64,000 bases of DNA from a virus, in IMG/VR virus record IMGVR_UViG_3300023257_000013, positions 45,387 to 109,386 of that record, one strand, 5' to 3'. This document shows, piece after piece, positions 6,312 through 63,315 of the stretch; within the stretch, counting starts at the first letter, position 1, and each line of letters opens with the position of its first letter. The notes beneath the pieces were generated by a model. It did not search any database and was not told the DNA's origin. It was given only the letters and a program-made list of their open reading frames with translations. The translations under genes were made by a program, and so were the position numbers.

Positions 6312-6538
6312 CAGGATCCCCCACCGTGTTTCAGTCGGGCCAACTGTTCATGCAGCCCCGACAATGCGGCCTGATCCTGGGCCACCATAGTCTCCAGGAA
6401 GGTGCGGAGCTTGACGAGAGTTTCAGCCTGACGCTGCATCAGGGGAGGAGTGGCAGCGTGCCCTTCCATCTCACCCCAGGCCCCAGGGTCCACCCCGAGT
6501 TTGTCCAGCAAGTCCTGAATTTCTTTAGGGATCTCCAC
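6311..6538 (-). CDS. Small structural-operon protein; start codon rebuilt at an IS junction
   Basis: The core reads EIPKEIQDLLDKLGVDPG, then a helix-rich segment (RQAETLVKLRTFLETMVAQD, LHEQLARLKHGGG), probably a short coiled coil of about 75 aa. The best start is GTG 6538-6536, overlapping the TAG of tnpB (TAGTG) with AGAAGG four bases upstream. A GTG at 6568 is also in frame but lies inside the right-end hairpin of the IS. If the element inserted between TTGAT and GGAGATCC, the ancestral gene began ATG-GAG-ATC with the ATG overlapping the TGA of the 3804-aa gene, as elsewhere in this operon. It ends in a TGATG overlap with the next gene. Small coiled-coil proteins here often assist tail assembly, but the function is unknown. 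Confidence 0.5.
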   Translation of the reverse strand: MEIPKEIQDLLDKLGVDPGAWGEMEGHAATPPLMQRQAETLVKLRTFLETMVAQDQAALSGLHEQLARLKHGGGS

Positions 6539-7746
6539 TAGGCCTTCTGATACCTTTCCCCCACGCACAAAGGCGTAGGGGTTAGTTCCTGCTTCATCAA
6601 AGGCAGTTTCGTTTCAGCTAATGCCAAAACCAGCGCTTCCTTCTCCACAAGCGTAACTTCCCGTGTAACCCACGGTAGTAAGTTCAAAGCGGCATTGACA
6701 TCTCTGTCAATTTCCCAACCGCAGGCGCACTTGAAGGTACGCTCGGATAGGCTTAACTTAGCCCTCTTTTCACAACACAAAAAACAGGTCTTCGACGAAG
6801 CGTAAAAACGATCATGAACAACGACCACGTCATCAAAGATGACCGCCTTATAATTGATCTGCCGTCGAAACCCCCCCCATCCCTCATCCACGATGTGGCG
6901 GCTCAACCGCCTATTACGAACCATGTTCTGTACAGCCAAATCCTCGATCCCTATCGCTTGGTTCTCACGACAGAGCCTTGTACTCAGTTTGTGCAGATAG
7001 TCGGATCGGACGTAACCGATCCGACGGTGCAATCGAGCCAATTTCATTGTCGATTTACGGCGATTTGCTGATCCCTTCTGTTTGCGGGAATGCCAACGGG
7101 ACTCCCGTTGCAACTTCCTCAGGTTCTTTTTCAAGGCCTTTGGTCCTTGAATATGCTCCCCGGTGGAGAGTGTAGCAGAGGATCTGATACCCAAATCGAC
7201 ACCGACCTCACTATTGGCAATGCGGTCACGTCGATAGTCACCGACATCGACCTGTACTACAACGAACCAGGCGTCAGCTACACGCTTGACGATAGCACTG
7301 GTGATCATACCCTCGAAACGTAGGACTTCACGCAACCTGACCCATCCTATTTTGGGTAAGTGGATACGTTTGTTGTCTAATCGGAATCGGTCATTAGCTA
7401 TGTAGAAAGAGTCCTTGCACCCACCTCGTTTTTTAAACTTGGGGTAGCCTGGTTTTCGACCCGCTTTCATACGATGGAAAAAATGCGTGAACGCCTTTTG
7501 GAGTTGCGTGAAAGACTGGGCTGTACAGTCCCTGTGAACTTCATAAGTCCAGGGAAACTTCTCACGACGGATAGCATTGAACTGTTTCTTGAGAGAAGAT
7601 CCAGAAGGTTTTTCTCCCGCCTCGTAGGCGCTTTTCCAATGTTCCAACGCCCAGTTGTACGTGAACCTCGCCACACCACAGGCATGACGAAAGTATTCCT
7701 CCTGCGTTCGGGAGGGACGGAGCCTTATTTCATGAGCTAGAAGCAC
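6538..7746 (-). CDS. tnpB: TnpB-type RNA-guided endonuclease, RuvC residues intact
   Basis: A 402-aa protein of typical TnpB length, starting at GTG 7746 with GAGGGGAAAA just upstream. The N-terminal OrfB helix-turn-helix region (PSRTQEEYFRHACGVARFTYNW) is followed by the beta-barrel/REC region (KAGRKPGYPKFKK). RuvC motifs are complete: VGVDLGI (Asp184), AIGIEDLAV (Glu268) and WEIDRDVNAALN (Asp347/349). The zinc ribbon between RuvC II and III is present (Cys321, Cys324/325, Cys340, Cys342). In this family the protein uses an omega-RNA transcribed over its own 3' end and right flank to cut DNA next to a TTGAT-like TAM, helping retain the element. No frameshift or lost residue is seen, so it is probably active. 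Without tnpA in the window it must move in trans or be fixed. Confidence 0.93.
   Translation of the reverse strand: MLLAHEIRLRPSRTQEEYFRHACGVARFTYNWALEHWKSAYEAGEKPSGSSLKKQFNAIRREKFPWTYEVHRDCTAQSFTQLQKAFTHFFHRMKAGRKPGYPKFKKRGGCKDSFYIANDRFRLDNKRIHLPKIGWVRLREVLRFEGMITSAIVKRVADAWFVVVQVDVGDYRRDRIANSEVGVDLGIRSSATLSTGEHIQGPKALKKNLRKLQRESRWHSRKQKGSANRRKSTMKLARLHRRIGYVRSDYLHKLSTRLCRENQAIGIEDLAVQNMVRNRRLSRHIVDEGWGGFRRQINYKAVIFDDVVVVHDRFYASSKTCFLCCEKRAKLSLSERTFKCACGWEIDRDVNAALNLLPWVTREVTLVEKEALVLALAETKLPLMKQELTPTPLCVGERYQKA
6559..6581 (-). ncRNA. Right-end hairpin, likely part of the TnpB omega-RNA scaffold
   Basis: The minus strand forms CCCC(T)ACGC / GCGTGGGG around a CTTTGT loop, overlapping the last codons of tnpB. 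IS200/IS605 right ends carry such a hairpin, and the omega-RNA runs through it into flanking DNA that acts as guide. Here the guide would lie just left of the element, in the 75-aa structural gene. The full RNA limits cannot be set from sequence alone. Confidence 0.5.
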
Positions 7747-20670: not shown

Positions 20671-23100
20671 CTAACTAGCGATCAGATGGCCCTTGGCCCC
20701 GATACCCCAAGTTCCGAACGGCAGCCCCGTGAAGGGTTCCAGAGAACCGGCGCAGAGAATTGGGCCACTGTCCGTTCCAAAAATCGGCCCTGCCAGCAAC
20801 ACGCCCGAGGATCCTCTCACAGTCGCCACCCCCGCAGTCGCTACAAGGAAAGCAGCCGCCGTGCCTGTCATTGTTGCCGTGCCCGCCGAGGCCGTAAGGG
20901 AGAGGGGGCCAACACTTGCCGTGGCGTTGATCCCAGCAGGGCTCATCGTCAAGGTGCTGGTAGCAGCCTTGGCCTTCCACACACCCACCAGGGTCTCATA
21001 GGTCATGTTACCGACTTTGATGGAAGTCTTGTGATTCCCCAGGTTGAAGGTTTCCTCACGATCCCCCGCCACATAGGTCACCTTCTCACAGACGAAACCT
21101 GGCACCGTAGGGGCGTAAGTCCGCTCGTGGAGGGGGAAATTCGTGGGGAGACCGTACTTGGGACCACCGTAGGACTCCTGGCATTTCCCACCCACAGTGA
21201 TCTGGAAGTTTTCGGAGGAAATGGATGTCCTCTTGACTCCGTCGAGGCTCAAATCCTCATGCCCAGTGATCTGCACGGAGGTCGCACTGACCTCGGTCTG
21301 GTGCCCATGGATGAGCACCTTTTTGCCCGCAAGGAGGCGAAGGTTGGTTCGGGCCTCAATGTCTACCGCAGGAACGTCCCCTGCGCCCCGCCCCGTGCCC
21401 AACACGGCCTCCATCTCAGCTTCGTGTGACTTGATAGGTCCCCCACCGAAAATGCGAACTGAGCCCTCCTGCGCCGTGAAGGCCAGGCTGTTCGTTCCAG
21501 TGGTTCCGAACTCGGTGTGCCCATCGAGCAGCAGTTGGAACTTTCCTGCAACGCCCAATTTGAGGCCACCCCTCAGGAACGCTTCCACTGCGTTGCCTTT
21601 CGGGTCGCCTCCGATGCTGGCCCTGAGTTGCCCTTGCTTGTTGTAGGACACGAACGTCTCGGACACACCTCCAGTAGGGGGTGTCAACCGGAACAGCGTA
21701 GCGGCTTGCTCCAAGATGGGGGTTGAACTGGCCCCACCCCCAACGAATGTAATGTTGGCAGGTTCTATCCCTGGTGCGGGAGTGTCCCCGTCAAAAACGG
21801 AGGCCACCAGAGGAAGCCCGTAGCTCTTCCTCCCGGCAATTGAGAAAGGGTCGTTCCCGACCACGGATCCCAGCACCCACTCTATGTACGGAGCGTTGAC
21901 GTTCGGTGTCGTGGACCCCGTCTTCGGGTCGTTCTCCGGGATCCGGTCTACATCGAGCATGTCCGTCTGCTCGGTGACGGGCAAAATCCCATCCGAGGTG
22001 TGGGTAACCTCAATACGGTACTCCGTCAACGTCCGGGCATCCGGGTTGGTGACAGCATTTCCCTTGCTCTGATTGGACACACGGAACAGGGACTTCGCCC
22101 CGTAGATTGCATCGGTTTTATGCTTATCATCTACGACCTGCCCGAATTCGTTGATGAAACCCCCGTACCGAAGAAACTGGAGGGGATCCAGGTACGGGTC
22201 CGGGGCAAGATAGCTTCGAGTGAGCGTCGAATCCTCAGTGCTCTTAGCCAAGTTCGCTGATGGTGTCAGGAACCCCTGGGTTTCACTCAGACTTGAGGGG
22301 AGTGACTTGTCCGTCAGTGGGCGTCCCAGCCCCGCCTGAAGTCCATCATCCCAGATCTTTCCATCGGACACCATGGTGGGAGGAAGGAATGTGGCATCCC
22401 GCTGCACCATCCCGGCGTAGACACGGGCACCAGCCAGCGCTTGGAAACTCTGCAACGCCCGGAGTACGGCAGCCTGGTCCTGGTCCCGTAGGCGGAACTC
22501 GTTCCCCCGCCTGTTGGACAGTGTCACACTCTCATCCAGCACAAGGTCTGAACCCTGGGCAGAGGAGCCTACGATGTTGCCGGGTTGGATGTGCCGGAGC
22601 TTGTGCCGGGTGCGATCATAGGAACCCTCCCAGAATTTCTCTTCTCCCGGTCCCAGTTCGTATTCGTCGGCGGTCGTTTCCGCCGTTGTTACCCAGTTCC
22701 GGCCTGGCCAGATGCCCGGAACCATCCAACCCAGAATCACAGGAGTCTTGGTACTCTCCCCCACGTCCGATGTGGCACTCTCCTGCACCATCCAACCGAT
22801 GATGCAGAAATCCCCGATCTGGGGCATCGCCCCGAGGAAGTGGCGGGCACCGGCCCCTGGGAAGGTAAGGGGAACAGGCACACGCTCATAGGTGCCCGAG
22901 GCACCCGCTACGGTACGGAGCGTAGCGAGGTGGCCCTCGTAGTCCAAGTTAGTGACCTTGGCGATCCCCAACCCGTAATTCTGGTCAGGGGAAGCCTTCT
23001 TCAGATCCTGCTGGGCCTTCGTGGTTGTGGACCGCATCTGCCCACGGGTAACAGAGGGGGCACCACCTGGACGTCTGGAACTGGTGTCTGATGGGGCCAT
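20671..23100 (-). CDS. Baseplate spike/central hub protein, gpV/gp5-like OB-fold
   Basis: An 809-aa protein whose ATG overlaps the hub stop (TAATG). After a ~40-residue Ser/Gly-rich start, the segment around residues 42-110 (YGLGIAKVTNLDYEGHLATL, then AMPQIGDFCIIGWM) matches the OB-fold of phage gpV/T4 gp5 spikes, where a beta barrel of the G-x-V-x(n)-P-x-x-GD-x-V type caps the hub. A long middle region is beta-rich. The last ~120 residues alternate short hydrophobic strands with Gly/Ala/Thr (LSLTASAGTATMTGTAAAFL), as in the intertwined trimeric beta-prism of spikes. It would pierce the outer membrane or cell surface at contraction. There is no clear lysozyme domain here; that activity appears to be in the adjoining hub. 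Confidence 0.75.
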   Translation of the reverse strand: MAPSDTSSRRPGGAPSVTRGQMRSTTTKAQQDLKKASPDQNYGLGIAKVTNLDYEGHLATLRTVAGASGTYERVPVPLTFPGAGARHFLGAMPQIGDFCIIGWMVQESATSDVGESTKTPVILGWMVPGIWPGRNWVTTAETTADEYELGPGEEKFWEGSYDRTRHKLRHIQPGNIVGSSAQGSDLVLDESVTLSNRRGNEFRLRDQDQAAVLRALQSFQALAGARVYAGMVQRDATFLPPTMVSDGKIWDDGLQAGLGRPLTDKSLPSSLSETQGFLTPSANLAKSTEDSTLTRSYLAPDPYLDPLQFLRYGGFINEFGQVVDDKHKTDAIYGAKSLFRVSNQSKGNAVTNPDARTLTEYRIEVTHTSDGILPVTEQTDMLDVDRIPENDPKTGSTTPNVNAPYIEWVLGSVVGNDPFSIAGRKSYGLPLVASVFDGDTPAPGIEPANITFVGGGASSTPILEQAATLFRLTPPTGGVSETFVSYNKQGQLRASIGGDPKGNAVEAFLRGGLKLGVAGKFQLLLDGHTEFGTTGTNSLAFTAQEGSVRIFGGGPIKSHEAEMEAVLGTGRGAGDVPAVDIEARTNLRLLAGKKVLIHGHQTEVSATSVQITGHEDLSLDGVKRTSISSENFQITVGGKCQESYGGPKYGLPTNFPLHERTYAPTVPGFVCEKVTYVAGDREETFNLGNHKTSIKVGNMTYETLVGVWKAKAATSTLTMSPAGINATASVGPLSLTASAGTATMTGTAAAFLVATAGVATVRGSSGVLLAGPIFGTDSGPILCAGSLEPFTGLPFGTWGIGAKGHLIAS

Positions 23101-37700: not shown

Positions 37701-40283
37701 TCACCTGGAAAGGAAGGCCATCTGGACGGAAGCGATAGTGGCCTGAGCCGCCGCACCGTCCAGGTTACCCTGCGGTACCCACTCCCCCGGCACCTGGGAA
37801 GATGCAGCCCTGAGCCTCTTGGCCAGAGGGGGCAGGAAGTCGTAAATCGACCCCACCGCCTCCAGGAAATCAGCCATCCGGGTGAGGTGCGCCTTATACA
37901 TGCTCGTCTGCGTCAGCACCGTAGTCTGGAGCAACTTGAGTGCCAGGAGCAAAGTCTTGGCCACCCTGATCTCGTGGGTTGCCCCAGGCAATCCACCATC
38001 GGACTGGATCTGGGCCAGCAGGGTCATATGCTGCACAATGGCACCCAGGGTACTGGATACAACAGGGGACTGGCCCAAGGTGTTCACCGAAGGGGTAGTC
38101 TCACCCGGATCCTGATCGAAGAGCAGTTCCACTCCCAAACCGTCCGAGCCGTAGTCCTTGTCCCCCGTAGTGGCGACTCCCACATCATCCGCCCAGGTGC
38201 CAGAACTATCCGCCCAGGTGCCAGAACTATCTGCCCAAGTGCCAGAAGATCCCTTCGTGGAGGCACCAATGGACGAACCCCTCACAGAGGAACGACGGAT
38301 ATTCATCCCGGTGGACCCGTAGGTGTCCGGGGACATCGCATGGAGGACACCGCCAAACGTAGGGGGCTCGTGAGATGCTGCGGAGGCAGCGAAACAATGG
38401 TTCACCATGATGTCGTTGGGGCTGGCACTCCGAAGTACGCTGCCCAACACCTTGTCGTAGGGGACACCCGTGGGTACCACCCGCTGCTCCGGGGTCACCC
38501 CGGCCTGATCCCCGACCCGTTTGACGATAGCACAAAGGGACATCACCCGACTGGCGATACCAAAATCGACCGAGATCTTCTTAAGGCTGGTCTCCATTGC
38601 CACCCGAGCCGGGCCACTCCCAGCCATATCGATGGCGGTTTCCAGATCCTCAACCTGCCGCCCAGCCCACAAAAGGCTCACAGCACCCTCTGAAAGCTCC
38701 CGCTGGGTGGGTACGTCCACCACCACACTCATCCCAACAAGGCCCATCCTGACGGGGTAGGAACCGTTCTTGGACCCACCGTTGTCCGTGATGAACACAG
38801 GCCGACCGTCCCACACGTCCCCGACCTCGTGCATCTGAGGCTTGGCCGAACCGTTCATCTCCACCAGCACCTTCACGTCGGAATGACGGGGGCACTTGAC
38901 GGCGTTGAACAGTTCCATAGCCCCTGCGAGCACGTTCTCCGAGGGGTTCAGCATCTTCTGGACGCCGCCGGTACGCCGGGCAAGCTGGGCCAGGAAGCGA
39001 TCCTGGGCAGCACCCCCGATCCCCAGCACATGGACACGGCTCCCGGAAGCAGCCATGGACTCCACGATGGGGCCGGTCTCCCACACCTCACCGTCCGTGA
39101 TCAGGAAAATGTCTCCATCACCATCCAGGATCGTCAGAGCCTCCGACAAGGCCGTAGCCAACTGCGTCCCACCCTGAGAGTGTGTCCCCTGCAACCAGCG
39201 GGCCGCACGAGCACGATTGTCATCGGTAGCCTGCGCCAAGCTCTTATGGAAGGTCTCCGTCATACTGTCGAACCGGAGCAGACCAAACTGATCCTCCGGA
39301 GCCAACCCGGAAAGACACGCCTTCACGGACACCAGGGCCTGCTCGATCCTCTTCCCCCGCATGGAGCCGGAGCGATCCACCATGAAAATCACCTTCCTGG
39401 GCACCTGGGTGGCCTGTGGGACGAGTTCGGAGGGGAGGGCGACCATCCACCGGGGATGACCTTTTTTGCCCTTAGATGGCTTCCCCTTCACTATGGACTG
39501 ATCGGCAAACACCACCGGGGCCACCTCACGGGTGGACACGTCGATGACCAGATCCCGATCCGGGGACGAGGAGAGGCCCGCCAGCCAAACGTCAGCGGAA
39601 CCATTGATGTTCTGCTGCATCGTCACGTTGTGAGAGGGGGAGGACACGGTACCGACCAAACCAGCGGCCTCCAGGTGAAGCCTGAAACTGATCTCGTGCA
39701 ACTCCTCGGCGTTGTCCTTCCACTCGGGCAGGACCAACTCATCGAAGATGTCCTGAGGCAATTCCATCTTGGAACCACCAGAAGTGGGCGTGATGCGGGC
39801 AATGCTGTGATAGCTGGGGGCCAGGGTAAAGGGGAACCGGAAGCGGTACCGCCCGTCCTGCAGTTCCACCCCACCGATCACATCAACAGCGACCGTGACC
39901 GTCTCATCGGGCTGGACCTGTCCCACCATGATGGTTACGACCCCGTCCAGGCTAGTCTCCGCCAGGGTGGACAGGTGACCGGCCTCCACGCCAGCCTCGT
40001 ACTCCTTCCGGGCGTCCTCCCTCGGGGTAAGCTGGGAGTCCACCTCGAAGTCCTTTCCCTTCACCTTGTACCGCCGGACGGCCCCACCACGGGGAAGCTG
40101 GAAGATGTACAGCGCCTCCATGGGCTGGTCCCCGGCGCACTTGAAGCTGTGGACGATGGTCATCAACCCACCCGCAGGAGTGACCTGACCTGTCATCTCC
40201 ATCTTCTCCATCGCCAGGGGCACTGGGACGTGCGTGTGCGGATTCACCAATACGTTTCCGAGTTCCTGTGCCATGCCTCTCAT
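37701..40283 (-). CDS. VIT-VWA domain protein (inter-alpha-trypsin-inhibitor-like architecture)
   Basis: About 860 aa from ATG 40283, whose GAGGAG site lies in the last codons of the regulator gene upstream. A VIT domain spans residues ~20-160 (YIFQLPRGGAVRRYKVKGKD, DARKEYEAG, MVGQVQPDETVTVAVDVIGG, YRFRFPFTLAPSY). A von Willebrand A domain follows at ~298-470 with an intact MIDAS: DRSGSM, a Thr in GGTQLATALS and the Asp of LITDGEVW. The part after ~640 is low-complexity with three exact SSGTWAD repeats, then a helical domain (VAKTLLLALKLLQTTVLTQT). There is no signal peptide. VIT-VWA proteins bind partners through a metal ion. A phage copy between sheath and tube genes is unusual, and host-interaction, anti-defence or virion decoration are all possible. 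Confidence 0.88.
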   Translation of the reverse strand: MRGMAQELGNVLVNPHTHVPVPLAMEKMEMTGQVTPAGGLMTIVHSFKCAGDQPMEALYIFQLPRGGAVRRYKVKGKDFEVDSQLTPREDARKEYEAGVEAGHLSTLAETSLDGVVTIMVGQVQPDETVTVAVDVIGGVELQDGRYRFRFPFTLAPSYHSIARITPTSGGSKMELPQDIFDELVLPEWKDNAEELHEISFRLHLEAAGLVGTVSSPSHNVTMQQNINGSADVWLAGLSSSPDRDLVIDVSTREVAPVVFADQSIVKGKPSKGKKGHPRWMVALPSELVPQATQVPRKVIFMVDRSGSMRGKRIEQALVSVKACLSGLAPEDQFGLLRFDSMTETFHKSLAQATDDNRARAARWLQGTHSQGGTQLATALSEALTILDGDGDIFLITDGEVWETGPIVESMAASGSRVHVLGIGGAAQDRFLAQLARRTGGVQKMLNPSENVLAGAMELFNAVKCPRHSDVKVLVEMNGSAKPQMHEVGDVWDGRPVFITDNGGSKNGSYPVRMGLVGMSVVVDVPTQRELSEGAVSLLWAGRQVEDLETAIDMAGSGPARVAMETSLKKISVDFGIASRVMSLCAIVKRVGDQAGVTPEQRVVPTGVPYDKVLGSVLRSASPNDIMVNHCFAASAASHEPPTFGGVLHAMSPDTYGSTGMNIRRSSVRGSSIGASTKGSSGTWADSSGTWADSSGTWADDVGVATTGDKDYGSDGLGVELLFDQDPGETTPSVNTLGQSPVVSSTLGAIVQHMTLLAQIQSDGGLPGATHEIRVAKTLLLALKLLQTTVLTQTSMYKAHLTRMADFLEAVGSIYDFLPPLAKRLRAASSQVPGEWVPQGNLDGAAAQATIASVQMAFLSR
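38188..38248. repeat. 21-bp tandem repeat, three copies
   Basis: Three near-identical 21-bp units start at 38191, 38212 and 38233 (core GCCCAGGTGCCAGAACT on the plus strand) and encode SSGTWAD three times in the VIT-VWA protein. The first two copies are nearly identical, the third has two or three changes, which points to recent slippage expansion of a linker. Confidence 0.85.
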
Positions 40284-40285
40284 CG

Positions 40286-41011
40286 TCAAATCTCCTCGTT
40301 TTCGTCTGCAATATCCGGGATCTTTTGAATGTCTCGCTCAAACTGAGCCAAACCAGAAAGGATGCGGTTTTTTCTCCAAGGGGAAAGTCTCTCTGGAATG
40401 CGTACAATCACATCATCGGAAACAGCATACACGATCTCCTTTTGAGCCGGAGTTTGGGGTAAAGATCTGGTTTCTGTGGGCAGTGACTTTTCCAACAAAG
40501 AGCGGATCTCAGTGAGACTCAGCCGCTGTGCCCTCTTCTCAGAGATAAAAAGAAGCATCACCCGATGTTTTTCGGTGTAGTAGGCCCCCGGTCCAGAACG
40601 ACAAGGACCAGGCAAAAGGTAAATGGAGATGTAGTACCTGATAGTTCGGGCGGAGACCCCCACCAATTCTGAGAGTTGGGGCAGAGACCATTTGTCATCC
40701 GTGTCCAAGGCTACTGCACAAGATGACCTTTGACCCTGAGGAACAAACTGCGGAACGTCCCCCCTCAGAGCGAACTCCTTGAGTTCCGGGACATTCCGAA
40801 ACCACTCCCCCCTGATATAAAGATGTTGAAACTGCCGGTGCAGAAACTCCTCCACATCATAGGGAGCCTTGACCGGGACATAACGCAAAAGAACCACATT
40901 AGACGGTGTGGACACCTGAATAGCAGATGCTCGGTCCCGAGGGTTTGTGGATGTCCCTATCTTAATGGCCTCATTTTTTGCGTCCTCTAAAAAATAGATG
41001 TAGTGCTGCAT
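40286..41011 (-). CDS. T5orf172/Mug113-like domain fused to a MerR-type HTH regulator
   Basis: A 241-aa protein. Residues 1-85 (YIYFLEDAKNEAIKIGTSTN, then EEFLHRQFQHLYIRGEWF) match the T5orf172/Mug113 branch of the GIY-YIG fold, with YIYFL and KIGTSTNP as the characteristic strands. Residues ~107-175 (LPQLSELVGVSARTIRYYIS, then YYTEKHRVMLLFISEKRAQR and LSLTEIRSLLE) form a MerR-type winged helix. The C-terminus has a conserved-looking EIVYAVSDDVIVRIPERLSP motif. The gene overlaps the leader of the VIT-VWA gene, so the two are co-translated. It probably controls the cassette through the TTGACAG repeats just upstream; that is inferred. Nuclease activity of the N-terminal domain is uncertain, as catalytic Arg and Glu are not obvious. 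Confidence 0.75.
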   Translation of the reverse strand: MQHYIYFLEDAKNEAIKIGTSTNPRDRASAIQVSTPSNVVLLRYVPVKAPYDVEEFLHRQFQHLYIRGEWFRNVPELKEFALRGDVPQFVPQGQRSSCAVALDTDDKWSLPQLSELVGVSARTIRYYISIYLLPGPCRSGPGAYYTEKHRVMLLFISEKRAQRLSLTEIRSLLEKSLPTETRSLPQTPAQKEIVYAVSDDVIVRIPERLSPWRKNRILSGLAQFERDIQKIPDIADENEEI

Positions 41012-41154: not shown

Positions 41155-41571
41155 ATGAAGGACAGATGCGGATTCGATGGGGACAACATCTTCGGCCCCC
41201 GGTTCGATGAGATGTTCAGGAAACTGGACGATCTCTTCGGGAAGGACACCCCCGAGTGGAAAAGCACCGAGGTAGGAGTACATGGGATCGTCCACGATGA
41301 CACGGGGTCCACGTACCAGGCGCTCATCCCCGGAGCCACCCGTGAGGATGTGACCATCAAGGTCGAGAAGGGGTCGCTTCAGATCGACGTCACCTACAAG
41401 CTCCCTCTCATACAAGGCGGCAAGGAACACACCTTCTCCGCCAGTGTACTGCTCGATGAGAAGTACGACACGGCCAAGATCGACGCCAAGTGTGTGAACG
41501 GTGTCCTGACCGTGAGGATCCCCTTCAGGAAGACCGCCAAGGTCCAGCCCGTCGACATCAAGGTCGGCTAA
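41155..41571 (+). CDS. Small heat-shock protein, Hsp20/alpha-crystallin family
   Basis: A 138-aa protein with a strong ribosome site (AAGGAGG before ATG 41155). A short N-terminal helix (FDEMFRKLDDLFGKD) precedes an alpha-crystallin domain: TGSTYQALIPGATREDVTIK, then VEKGSLQIDVTY, with the diagnostic VNGVLTVRIPF near residue 120 and an I-x-I/V-like C-terminal anchor (VDIKV). The length fits bacterial Hsp20. Such holdases bind unfolded proteins without ATP. It is the only plus-strand gene in this part, divergent from the MerR/VIT-VWA operon, and its end overlaps the convergent endonuclease gene by 14 bases. Myophages sometimes carry Hsp20, probably to aid capsid or tail folding or to protect takeover proteins; here co-regulation with the VIT-VWA gene is plausible. 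Confidence 0.9.
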   Translation: MKDRCGFDGDNIFGPRFDEMFRKLDDLFGKDTPEWKSTEVGVHGIVHDDTGSTYQALIPGATREDVTIKVEKGSLQIDVTYKLPLIQGGKEHTFSASVLLDEKYDTAKIDAKCVNGVLTVRIPFRKTAKVQPVDIKVG

Positions 41572-43528
41572 TCTCAGTTTGATCCTGAGCGGGACAAATC
41601 AACCTCGTCCCTAACCAAAGACCCTGTGCCTTCGCTTCAAGAACACCGAGGGAAACTAACCGTCCCTGTAGATAGGACACGTCTCGGTAGGGCTCATCCT
41701 CAGTAACCTCCAGGTAATGGAATCCGGACGAAGCCTGGACCATCTCCCGCTTAATCCGGTCACGCTCCCGTAGTGCCTCATATTCAGGCAAATAGGACTC
41801 GTCAATCATAAAAGCGTTAGGGAACGTGTAATGCTGATGACCCTGGAATTCAACTATTAGGTGGGTAGCGTCAGGGAGAAGGAAATGACCATCGAAACGG
41901 AAACGACGTCCAGTCGGAGGGTTGGTATATCTCATGGAGGACCATTCCATCTCATAGGGCACGTCACCCAAAGCCTTACTAACAGCGTCCAAACAAAGAA
42001 TTTGTCGGATATGCCGATGAAAGGTAGGCAGGCCATGCCGGTCACACTCCCTCTTGATAACGGGGTAATGATGCCCCGTCACGGACATCGCTTTACCAAT
42101 GGAAACCTTCCCGTTCTTCAGTTTGAACTGTTCCAGTAATGCCTTATCCAACCGGATCGTCCGGTCATCAGCAGCGTTCCTGACGTACCGCCGAGTCTGA
42201 GCCAACCCCAGGTCCACGATATACTTTCGCACAGTGATCCAAGAGACCCCCGTAACTTCCGTCACCCGATGATGATCAACACAGCCATCAGCATCCATAA
42301 AGGGTTCGAAATCCTTCAGGGTTAAATTAGCAGCCAACCCATTATCCCAAGGACGGTTCTCTCCAGTATAGAATTTCAACTTCCGGGCAGTTTCCGCCAA
42401 ACGAGGATCCTCTGCTGCTGTCAATCCTTTACTCCAAGAAGGCCGTCCTAACATTTTTTTGGAACTCCGGGCGATGCTCGGATGGTCCTCCTTGGTTAGT
42501 CCCTTGTTCCAACGCCCGGCATTCTCGGACATCTTCTGTCGGGTTTCATCCGACAGTCGTCGCCCTCGTAATACAGACTTGTCCCGTATTGCTGATGACA
42601 AAGCTACCATTAAGGCTTTTGGGTGTTGCTGTCGGTACCCAGGATGAGCGTTCTGTATGTGGCTAGTTAGGTTCTCCGCTCTGTACCCACACTCTAAACA
42701 AGTCACGTAATCCTCAGGTTCGAACTTGTCAGCCCATCTGGTATCCTCGGCTTTCTGTTGGCAGGAGGGACAACGACTGTCATGCATCCAACCCAAAAAC
42801 TTGGAAACGTCATGGGGCGTACCACACCCCGGACAGGTGACGGACTTAACCTCGCCTGTACCATGTCCACCATCCCTAGTCCTAGCAGCGTCAGACATTG
42901 CCCGTTCAACCTTTAGGGAACGAATCTGAACATCTCGACCATACTGAGCACGGTACTGATCCGCCGTAATCCCATGTGCCGCTTTCAAATGTCGAGCCAA
43001 AGACTTCGAACGATGACCACAGACAAGGCAGACGACGTAGTCAACCCCCTGTGTGACACTAGCCCAACGGGCTTCCCTTTGGGCATCCTGATAACGAATG
43101 TGCGCCTCGTCCCCCGCCTTTCTACGACGTCCGAAATGTCCCGCCAGACCCCCTTCCCCAACTACCTGTAAGCCACACACAGGACAAGCACGATCACAAC
43201 GGCAATTTTCACAGACGAAAGTTGTTAACTCCATGTGTGCCGTCTGATTAGCTTTCAGAACGACAGGACTATGACACTTTGAACATGCCACTGTAACGTC
43301 CTTGTACACACGAGAGTTAGCCGTAGCCCGACATGTTTTGGCAGCCGCAGCAGCCTGGAGCTTTTTGCCACGTGCGACAAAGGCATCTTCCCCAAAAGCG
43401 GCCTTCCATTTAACTCGTAAAGTGTTGGGACTCATGCCCAAACGACGAGCAACAGCTTTGAAAGGCTCCGTCGTCGCAAAAGGGTCTAGGATTTCTTCCT
43501 GAGTTGCTTTAGATCTTGGTCCACCCAT
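41558..43528 (-). CDS. Homing endonuclease: zinc fingers, NUMOD3-like motifs, Vsr-like nuclease
   Basis: About 656 aa from ATG 43528, with AGGAGGT six bases upstream (a longer GTG start at 43549 is less likely). An HTH-like start (FKAVARRLGMSPNTLRVKWK) is followed by several Cys pairs and two Ros/MucR-like fingers (YVVCLVCGHRSKSLARHLKA and YVTCLECGYRAENLTSHIQN). Next come NUMOD3-like units (LSDETRQKMSENAGRWNKGL, and a repeat LGRPSWSKGL) and helix-turn-helix segments. The C-terminal domain with FRFDGHFLLP, HLIVEFQGHQHYTFP and RERDRIKREMVQ fits the Vsr-like (EDxHD) nuclease of phage homing enzymes. It lies between the sheath gene and hsp20 with its own promoter and overlaps the hsp20 end, typical of a late-arriving mobile gene. 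Confidence 0.85.
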   Translation of the reverse strand: MGGPRSKATQEEILDPFATTEPFKAVARRLGMSPNTLRVKWKAAFGEDAFVARGKKLQAAAAAKTCRATANSRVYKDVTVACSKCHSPVVLKANQTAHMELTTFVCENCRCDRACPVCGLQVVGEGGLAGHFGRRRKAGDEAHIRYQDAQREARWASVTQGVDYVVCLVCGHRSKSLARHLKAAHGITADQYRAQYGRDVQIRSLKVERAMSDAARTRDGGHGTGEVKSVTCPGCGTPHDVSKFLGWMHDSRCPSCQQKAEDTRWADKFEPEDYVTCLECGYRAENLTSHIQNAHPGYRQQHPKALMVALSSAIRDKSVLRGRRLSDETRQKMSENAGRWNKGLTKEDHPSIARSSKKMLGRPSWSKGLTAAEDPRLAETARKLKFYTGENRPWDNGLAANLTLKDFEPFMDADGCVDHHRVTEVTGVSWITVRKYIVDLGLAQTRRYVRNAADDRTIRLDKALLEQFKLKNGKVSIGKAMSVTGHHYPVIKRECDRHGLPTFHRHIRQILCLDAVSKALGDVPYEMEWSSMRYTNPPTGRRFRFDGHFLLPDATHLIVEFQGHQHYTFPNAFMIDESYLPEYEALRERDRIKREMVQASSGFHYLEVTEDEPYRDVSYLQGRLVSLGVLEAKAQGLWLGTRLICPAQDQTEISRP

Positions 43529-43547
43529 TGAGCCACCTCCTAAATCC

Positions 43548-43576
43548 ACGATACCGGGAAATCAGGAGGTCGTCAA
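43548..43576 (-). promoter_or_regulatory. Sigma70-like promoter for the homing endonuclease
   Basis: TTGACG (43576-43571), a 17-base spacer and TATCGT (43553-43548), 20 bases before the ATG. This gives the endonuclease its own promoter just after the sheath stop at 43614. Confidence 0.5.
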
Positions 43577-61460: not shown

Positions 61461-61892
61461 TTATAGAGGCTCTACCGCAACAGTGGGATCTGCAACCCAG
61501 GGATGGTCCGGACCAGCACCCCTACACCATTTCGAATCAGTCGAGGCCCAGCGACAACGGTTCTCTCCACGCTTCCCATGCTTCAAGGCGTACTCAGCCC
61601 GCATAGCCTCCCTTCTGTCCTGATAAGGTCCGAACAAGGCACGAGGTATCCAGGGTCGCCCCCTGAACGTACTCCGGGCACCACCGGAAAGGTCGCCGTT
61701 GTGCTGGCGTAAACGGCGACGTGGGTTGTTTGTGGCTCCCACGTAGGTGTATCCGACCCCCTTCTTCGTCAGGACCGTCAGAGACTGAATAACATAGACA
61801 TGCCAAAACTTACAGGGCGGCTCAGAGTAGGCTTCCCTGAAGAGCTTGGCGGGGAACGGCTTCGATGACTTCCTGCGTCTTCTTCGTTTCAT
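61461..61892 (-). CDS. GIY-YIG nuclease-domain protein
   Basis: A 143-aa protein. After a basic start (KRRRRRKSSKPFPAKLF) come HVYVIQSL and YTYVGATNNPRRRLRQHNGD, the GIY/YIG strands with the catalytic-region Arg, then GARSTFRGRPWIPRALFGPY and REAMRAEYALKHGKRGENR with the likely catalytic Glu. This layout matches the SLX1/UPF0213 branch of GIY-YIG proteins. It could be a homing endonuclease or a DNA repair/recombination nuclease. It starts 68 bases from the divergent 103-aa gene. Confidence 0.83.
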   Translation of the reverse strand: MKRRRRRKSSKPFPAKLFREAYSEPPCKFWHVYVIQSLTVLTKKGVGYTYVGATNNPRRRLRQHNGDLSGGARSTFRGRPWIPRALFGPYQDRREAMRAEYALKHGKRGENRCRWASTDSKWCRGAGPDHPWVADPTVAVEPL

Positions 61893-61960: not shown

Positions 61961-62272
61961 ATGGACCCGATGGTCACGTTCACGAAGACCGGAGACAAGG
62001 AAAGCGGAGCCAACGTATACAAGGTTGCAGTCGACGGAGTCGTCCAAGGCTACCTCTACAAGGGGTACGAAATGGGTGCCGGACGCTGGTGCGCCGGATA
62101 CTTAGGCCACTTCGAAGGTGGCTTCAAATGGCAATTCCAGGATGAGGAACACATCCACTACCCTCACTACATGAACCGCCGGTTCGACACCCTCAAGGAC
62201 GCCAAGGGGAAGCTCCCCGCTCTCCTCGCCACTGCCGCCAGACGGAACGCCGCCGCAGGGGGTGCCCTGTGA
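61961..62272 (+). CDS. Small protein coupled to the tandem-HTH gene
   Basis: A 103-aa protein with AAAGGAGACCCACC before ATG 61961. It begins DPMVTFTKTGDKESGANVYK and is beta-rich with many aromatic and His residues (YLYKGYEMGAGRWCAGYLGH, HIHYPHYMNRRF), then an Ala/Arg-rich helix. Its stop overlaps the next start (GTGA), so it is translated with the HTH-repeat gene. I do not recognise a family; partner or regulator of the downstream protein is a guess. Confidence 0.65.
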   Translation: MDPMVTFTKTGDKESGANVYKVAVDGVVQGYLYKGYEMGAGRWCAGYLGHFEGGFKWQFQDEEHIHYPHYMNRRFDTLKDAKGKLPALLATAARRNAAAGGAL

Positions 62273-63315
62273 ACGCCATTGACTGGACCCTCTGGGACAA
62301 ATGGCTGGGAACCTATCCTGACCCCACGATTGCCCACATGGTCGGCACCTCAGCCACCGCCGTATGGGAACACAGGACAGCCCTCGGCATCGCAGCCTAC
62401 ACAGGATACGGTGACAAGGACCGCAAGGACACAAACTGGAACTACTGGGGCCAATTCCTGGGCCTCTGCTCCGACGCTGCCCTGGCCCGTGCAACAGGAC
62501 TCGCCCGCCTCACCGTGCGGAGCCAAAGGCTCAAGAGGGGCATCGCTGCCTTTGACCCTTGGGCGCATCTGGACTGGACTGACGTGCCCCTGGGACGGAA
62601 GTCGGACAAGGTCATCGCCACACAGATGGGCTGTCCCACCAACGTCGTCAAAAAGGCAAGACGGGAACGAAACATCCCACCCACGAATGAGCCCTACATC
62701 TGGGACGTTTCCTTGTTTGGTGTCCTATCAGACTGTGAGATCGCTCGCCGTATGGGTTGTGCCCCAAGCGCAGCCACTCTCGCCCGCCACAGGTTCGGCA
62801 TACCCTCTCTCACCCCTGGCGTCAACAGAGGGTCAAAGGGCATTGACTGGGACAAACAACCCCTCGGCCAAATGCTAGACGGACACCTCGCCCGTCAACT
62901 GGGTGTTGACCCCGGTGGTCTCCGGCGGCAGAGAATAAAACGAGGAATCCCGAACTATGTCGCACCCCAAAACACCTACTGGGACAAGCAACCCCTCGGA
63001 CAAATGAAGGATGCGGTTCTCGCCCGTCAACTGGGAGTAGGGGCCTACGTTGTGAGATTGCAACGGGTGAAACGAGGGATCCCGAGCTACAAGACTCCCA
63101 AGCCAGCGAAAGTCAAAAAGGTCAAACCTGATCCCTGGGTGAAGGCTGAACTCGGAAAAGTCCCGGACAGGATAGCGGCATCCCGAATGCATGTCAGCTT
63201 GGCGGCAGCACGAAAGGAACGCCTCCGCAGGGGTATCTCCCCTTGCCGGAAGCGTATCCCGAAATACCCGGCACTCCGAGCGATGAAATTCAGGATTGGT
63301 GTGAGGATCTACTAG
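62269..63315 (+). CDS. Protein of about seven tandem HTH-like repeats
   Basis: A 348-aa protein beginning at GTG 62269. It consists almost entirely of ~45-residue units sharing W-x(4,5)-LG-x(3)-D-x(2)-(I/L)A-x(2)-(L/M)G, then a V-x(3)-R-x(3)-GI ending. Examples: WDKQPLGQMKDAVLARQLGV and WDKQPLGQMLDGHLARQLGV (units 5 and 6, nearly identical), WTDVPLGRKSDKVIATQMGC (unit 3), WDVSLFGVLSDCEIARRMGC (unit 4). The last unit is more degenerate and the end is very basic. Each unit reads like a small homeodomain-like trihelical HTH, so the protein could track along a long DNA site. No nuclease motif is seen. Function unknown; a DNA-binding regulator or a host-takeover protein is plausible. Confidence 0.75.
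   Translation: MNAIDWTLWDKWLGTYPDPTIAHMVGTSATAVWEHRTALGIAAYTGYGDKDRKDTNWNYWGQFLGLCSDAALARATGLARLTVRSQRLKRGIAAFDPWAHLDWTDVPLGRKSDKVIATQMGCPTNVVKKARRERNIPPTNEPYIWDVSLFGVLSDCEIARRMGCAPSAATLARHRFGIPSLTPGVNRGSKGIDWDKQPLGQMLDGHLARQLGVDPGGLRRQRIKRGIPNYVAPQNTYWDKQPLGQMKDAVLARQLGVGAYVVRLQRVKRGIPSYKTPKPAKVKKVKPDPWVKAELGKVPDRIAASRMHVSLAAARKERLRRGISPCRKRIPKYPALRAMKFRIGVRIY

Follow-up and report, generated by a model that had tools for sequence, protein, structure and literature searches.

The phage record IMGVR_UViG_3300023257_000013 (109,386 bases), of which a stretch of 64,000 nucleotides (the window) was analysed, encodes a 348-residue protein with seven helix-turn-helix (HTH) units in tandem. The reading that we favour, with modest confidence, is that this array is a stand-alone, nuclease-free DNA-binding protein that acts as a regulator on an extended site and is translated with a 103-residue partner. 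Its open reading frame lies on the + strand, with a GTG start at 62269 and a stop that ends at 63315, and the product is basic (39 kDa, pI 10.5, 62 K+R versus 27 D+E).

The units were found with an iterated repeat profile grown from the array protein, each at an E value of 3.3e-11 or better. All are on the + strand: unit 1 covers residues 9–44 (62293–62400, iE 1.3e-13, helices 18–25 and 29–39), unit 2 residues 60–95 (62446–62553, iE 3.3e-11, helices 69–76 and 80–89), unit 3 residues 103–138 (62575–62682, iE 1.1e-13, helices 113–120 and 124–133), unit 4 residues 145–180 (62701–62808, iE 2.4e-12, helices 155–162 and 166–175), unit 5 residues 194–230 (62848–62958, iE 3.3e-13), unit 6 residues 238–274 (62980–63090, iE 4.3e-14) and unit 7 residues 290–326 (63136–63246, iE 7.9e-12, helices 300–307 and 311–320). 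Unit 7 is preceded by a lysine-rich linker and followed by a basic tail. The consensus core has 33 residues, LLGKVSDxxIAxxxGVSxxxVxxxRxxLGIPPY, and in the phage units a Trp usually stands directly N-terminal to it. When the protein was compared with itself, the best off-diagonal local score was 106, compared with a mean of 31 for 300 shuffles (SD 4.6, maximum 50), and the sum of the best 20 self-scores was 1223 versus 486 for shuffled sequence (SD 31). An earlier note on this DNA had described seven HTH-like repeats of about 45 residues; the number is borne out by the repeat profile and by a self-similarity above that of all 300 shuffles, and the length agrees with the spacing of 42–53 residues between units.

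In the AlphaFold model of the full array, seven HTH pairs coincide with the seven units, each consisting of an 8-residue helix, a 3-residue turn and a helix of 10–11 residues. The full-length model has a pLDDT of 62.9 and a pTM of 0.24, with low-confidence linkers and an undefined placement of the units relative to each other. A model of units 5 and 6 alone, made with seven rows, reached a mean pLDDT of 89.7, showing helices 14–21/25–34 and 58–65/69–79 with 3-residue turns and a short first helix ahead. Single modelled units superpose on the HTH domains of FapR, Mos1 transposase, Tn3 resolvase, sigma-54 and Fis; on Mos1 transposase, for instance, 37 residues superpose at 1.5 Å. These superpositions were a second look at Foldseek matches and have Z values under 5, as expected at about 40 residues, so they support an HTH fold rather than membership of a family. 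For the two-unit model, Foldseek found nothing in the PDB at E 0.001, and all VIA rows stayed below Z 5; a sequence search of solved structures with the array protein also gave no match. Among viral predicted structures there were six matches at E 0.001, two of them called transposase. For the full-length model, Foldseek found no match at E 0.001; its top row, a designed toroid, was rejected as meaningless at pTM 0.24. Against the Pfam HTH models the array protein itself scores under the cut-offs (16.6 bits for HTH_23 and 17 for the AsnC type), and the relatives L010 and L008 score above that of HTH_23 (31.2 and 30.3 versus 24.6). The predicted fold of the repeat is that of an HTH, as had been proposed from the sequence, and these two relatives, together with the modelled helix pairs and the superpositions, lend model-based support to this assignment.

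The two most similar units of the array are 5 and 6, which agree at 26 of 39 residues and 79 of 117 bases (67% for both protein and DNA). They had been taken for near copies left by an ongoing expansion of the repeat, a view not consistent with this level of identity or with a dS of about 1.58 (dN 0.26), at which synonymous sites are near saturation. A recent repeat expansion was rejected on the same dS of about 1.6, and the duplication, judged by its substitutions, is old and has been kept by selection. This bears on whether the protein could be what is left of a homing endonuclease after loss of its nuclease, decaying and without function, which we consider highly improbable: homing nucleases do contain the unit, and genes of the homing kind are numerous in the surrounding genome, but the frame is intact across all seven units, dN/dS between units 5 and 6 is about 0.16, and stand-alone relatives on plasmids show purifying selection and have kept their unit order. 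The only other copies of the array gene itself are identical ones in two sister contigs, so that the estimates of selection among relatives are those for plasmid arrays.

Several relatives carry the unit fused to enzymes. GIY-YIG homing endonucleases of Vibrio phages (PHROG 7168; eugene 12A10, helene 12B3, 424E50-1 and 1.187.O) match the same repeat profile, with three to four tandem units forming the C-terminal part after the nuclease domain. The array differs in having seven units and no nuclease domain; Pfam finds no GIY-YIG domain in the 348-residue protein. A mycobacteriophage HNH protein contains one unit, and a ResIII/Helicase_C helicase (L005) contains four at its C-terminus, one of which has the word KGIDWDKQPLG in common with unit 5. 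The fusions to GIY-YIG and HNH-type nucleases and the pI of 10.5 argue for the DNA-gripping role suggested earlier, and the array protein very probably binds DNA with several beads at once. As the earlier note had advised, the number of repeats was compared among relatives, and it differs, mostly between 2 and 9 units. A stand-alone three-unit array protein is encoded by the 485-kb phage LR745208, which by eye also encodes a relative of the window gene at 20671–23100. Outside the window, the same phage as the array encodes a protein with two repeat units at its C-terminus (L002, 1504–2541, − strand), which is HNH-type by eye, with two HNH-like segments, and for which Pfam gives no nuclease. 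Viral contigs scanned with GIY-YIG, consensus and L005-tail queries gave no further relatives.

These features suggest how the protein may work. The seven small HTH domains would be strung on flexible linkers like beads, and the second helix of each bead's motif could sit in the major groove, so that the whole chain might grip one extended stretch of DNA, whose length we would put at some tens of base pairs for binding of every bead in register. Bound somewhere in the genome of the phage or its host, the protein could act as a repressor, an activator or a blocker, both role and target being guesses, and the unit itself is seen as a mobile module, used by homing nucleases too for gripping DNA.

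Upstream of the array, on the same strand, is an ORF of 103 residues (61961–62272) whose stop overlaps the array start by four bases (GTGA), suggesting that the two are probably translated together. It has a good ribosome site, with AAAGGAGA ahead of its ATG, and has no known domain in Pfam or PHROG and no relatives beyond the sister contigs. Divergent from this pair, and 0.4 kb from the array, lies a small free-standing GIY-YIG nuclease of 143 residues (61461–61892, − strand, PF01541 E 2.6e-11). In principle, the array and this nuclease could be the two halves of a split homing endonuclease, with the array recognising DNA and working in trans with the nuclease, given that Vibrio phages have array units and a GIY-YIG domain in one protein and that the free gene is so close, in a phage where homing-type genes abound. 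Nevertheless, we find this improbable, because the two genes are divergent and not co-transcribed, with the array coupled to the 103-residue ORF instead, and because the arrays stand alone in the plasmid neighbourhoods examined (L011–L020 and L024), where no GIY-YIG or HNH gene is annotated nearby.

The homing-type genes of the phage are many. At 40286–41011 (− strand) of the window, a T5orf172/MUG113-type GIY-YIG domain is fused to a MerR HTH domain. Two TnpB/Cas12f-like proteins are encoded in or next to the window (6538–7746, − strand, and L004 8567–9814, − strand), one of them beside tail genes. Two large proteins with ROS/MucR zinc-finger matches (window 41558–43549, − strand, and L004 10830–12203, − strand, the latter also matching DUF7487) have the look of homing endonucleases that carry several DNA-binding modules. 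At 37701–40289 (− strand) is an 862-residue protein that by eye resembles inter-alpha-trypsin inhibitor (VIT/vWA) and is unusual in a phage.

Outside phages, the unit is found mainly on plasmids of Pseudomonas. With the array protein as tblastn query, 47 plasmid records were matched at about 26–33% identity; with the consensus repeat, 152 of the 72,556 records in PLSDB were matched at 634 places, 138 of these records being from Pseudomonas. The plasmid arrays have 3–9 units, mostly without another recognised domain, and annotated examples are called 'hypothetical protein', of which one plasmid can have them at as many as 11 places; pQBR103, pPma4326F and pNCGM3449 all carry stand-alone arrays. 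Among sampled genomes, a repeat match was found in 13 of 298 Pseudomonas species compared with only 3 of 398 Pseudomonadota, which indicates that mobile elements are the main carriers of the family. The phage and plasmid arrays have the unit in common and differ in hosts and neighbourhoods. The mobF relaxase gene of two Pseudomonas plasmids has an array gene (L019 19680–20165 and L020 32635–33345) immediately downstream, in tail-to-tail orientation, which may hint at a function connected with transfer; on several plasmids, a DUF1173 gene is followed by an array of five units. Five-unit arrays from different plasmids align unit by unit, with about 50–85% identity within a position and about 30% between positions, so this lineage has kept a stable number and order of units. 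Furthermore, dN/dS for plasmid arrays is 0.07–0.21 where synonymous sites are unsaturated, and on these substitution patterns the arrays appear to be functional, maintained proteins under purifying selection.

More tentatively, the arrays that stand alone in phages and on Pseudomonas plasmids may form an undescribed family of modular DNA readers, in which a variable number of beads, exchanged with homing endonucleases, would each recognise its own sub-site within a long composite site. A base-reading code predicts that the exposed residues of helix 3 are kept among orthologues yet differ between units, and we tested this on seven plasmid orthologues. Identity at the exposed helix-3 positions was 0.39 between orthologues versus 0.10 between units, a trend in the predicted direction, but the excess was not significantly above that at other surface positions (p = 0.14).

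A different possibility, which we regard as rather unlikely, is that the protein coats DNA or binds it globally with little sequence specificity, much like D5 of phage T5 (PHROG 323), a phage DNA-binding protein in which several HTH-like stretches can be made out by eye. In the T5 record, D5 has the annotation of a DNA-binding protein needed for replication and late transcription; both proteins are multi-HTH, basic and phage-encoded, and some plasmid and Vibrio phage relatives of the array match PHROG 323 as 'D5-like'. However, PHROG 323 is not among the matches of the array protein itself up to E 1, T5 D5 stays below threshold with the repeat profile (E 0.055), and the occurrence of the unit in fusions with homing nucleases speaks for some specificity. 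By profile, D5 falls outside the array repeat family; it is a useful analogue. An HTH fold has been reported for it, through which it was recently said to trigger retron defence (PMC13405049). Among known systems, the array also resembles the NUMOD modules of I-TevI and I-HmuI, which are modular, elongated DNA grips on phage nucleases (PMC3943268, PMC1564403), and the likeness to the array lies in modular DNA grips attached to nucleases. Neither the array protein nor six of its relatives has a Pfam match to NUMOD.

Tandem HTH units as such are already known from Myb proteins and homing endonucleases. Myb repeats are three-helix HTH units with a conserved Trp, whose tandem copies grip DNA, and TALE proteins grip DNA with tandem repeats of which one unit reads one base; no sequence relation of the array to either was found. 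Pfam, PHROG, NCBIfam and PADLOC contain no model that describes the array. Models of anti-phage defence gave nothing for the array protein and weak HTH-type matches (mad1) for plasmid relatives. We found no account of HTH repeats in homing endonucleases or phages in the open-access literature, and the main text of a 2026 pQBR plasmid survey does not mention HTH arrays. As far as we could find, what is new here is that HTH arrays with as many as nine units and no nuclease stand alone in both phages and plasmids, as a family that is unnamed.

Repeat-based DNA readers are rare and useful, and this family offers a compact 33-residue unit in 2–9 natural copies, with fusions to nucleases and a helicase and a spread over phages and many conjugative Pseudomonas plasmids, some with resistance genes. 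Independent reading of DNA by the beads, if it occurs, would provide a new modular scaffold and an explanation for recurring 'hypothetical proteins' on plasmids; even otherwise, a name for the unit would allow hundreds of genes to be annotated. Finally, gp19 of Bacillus phage PM1 (L022 1947–3041), annotated as 'RNA polymerase sigma factor', has six distantly similar HTH repeats, and its annotation is probably a misannotation.
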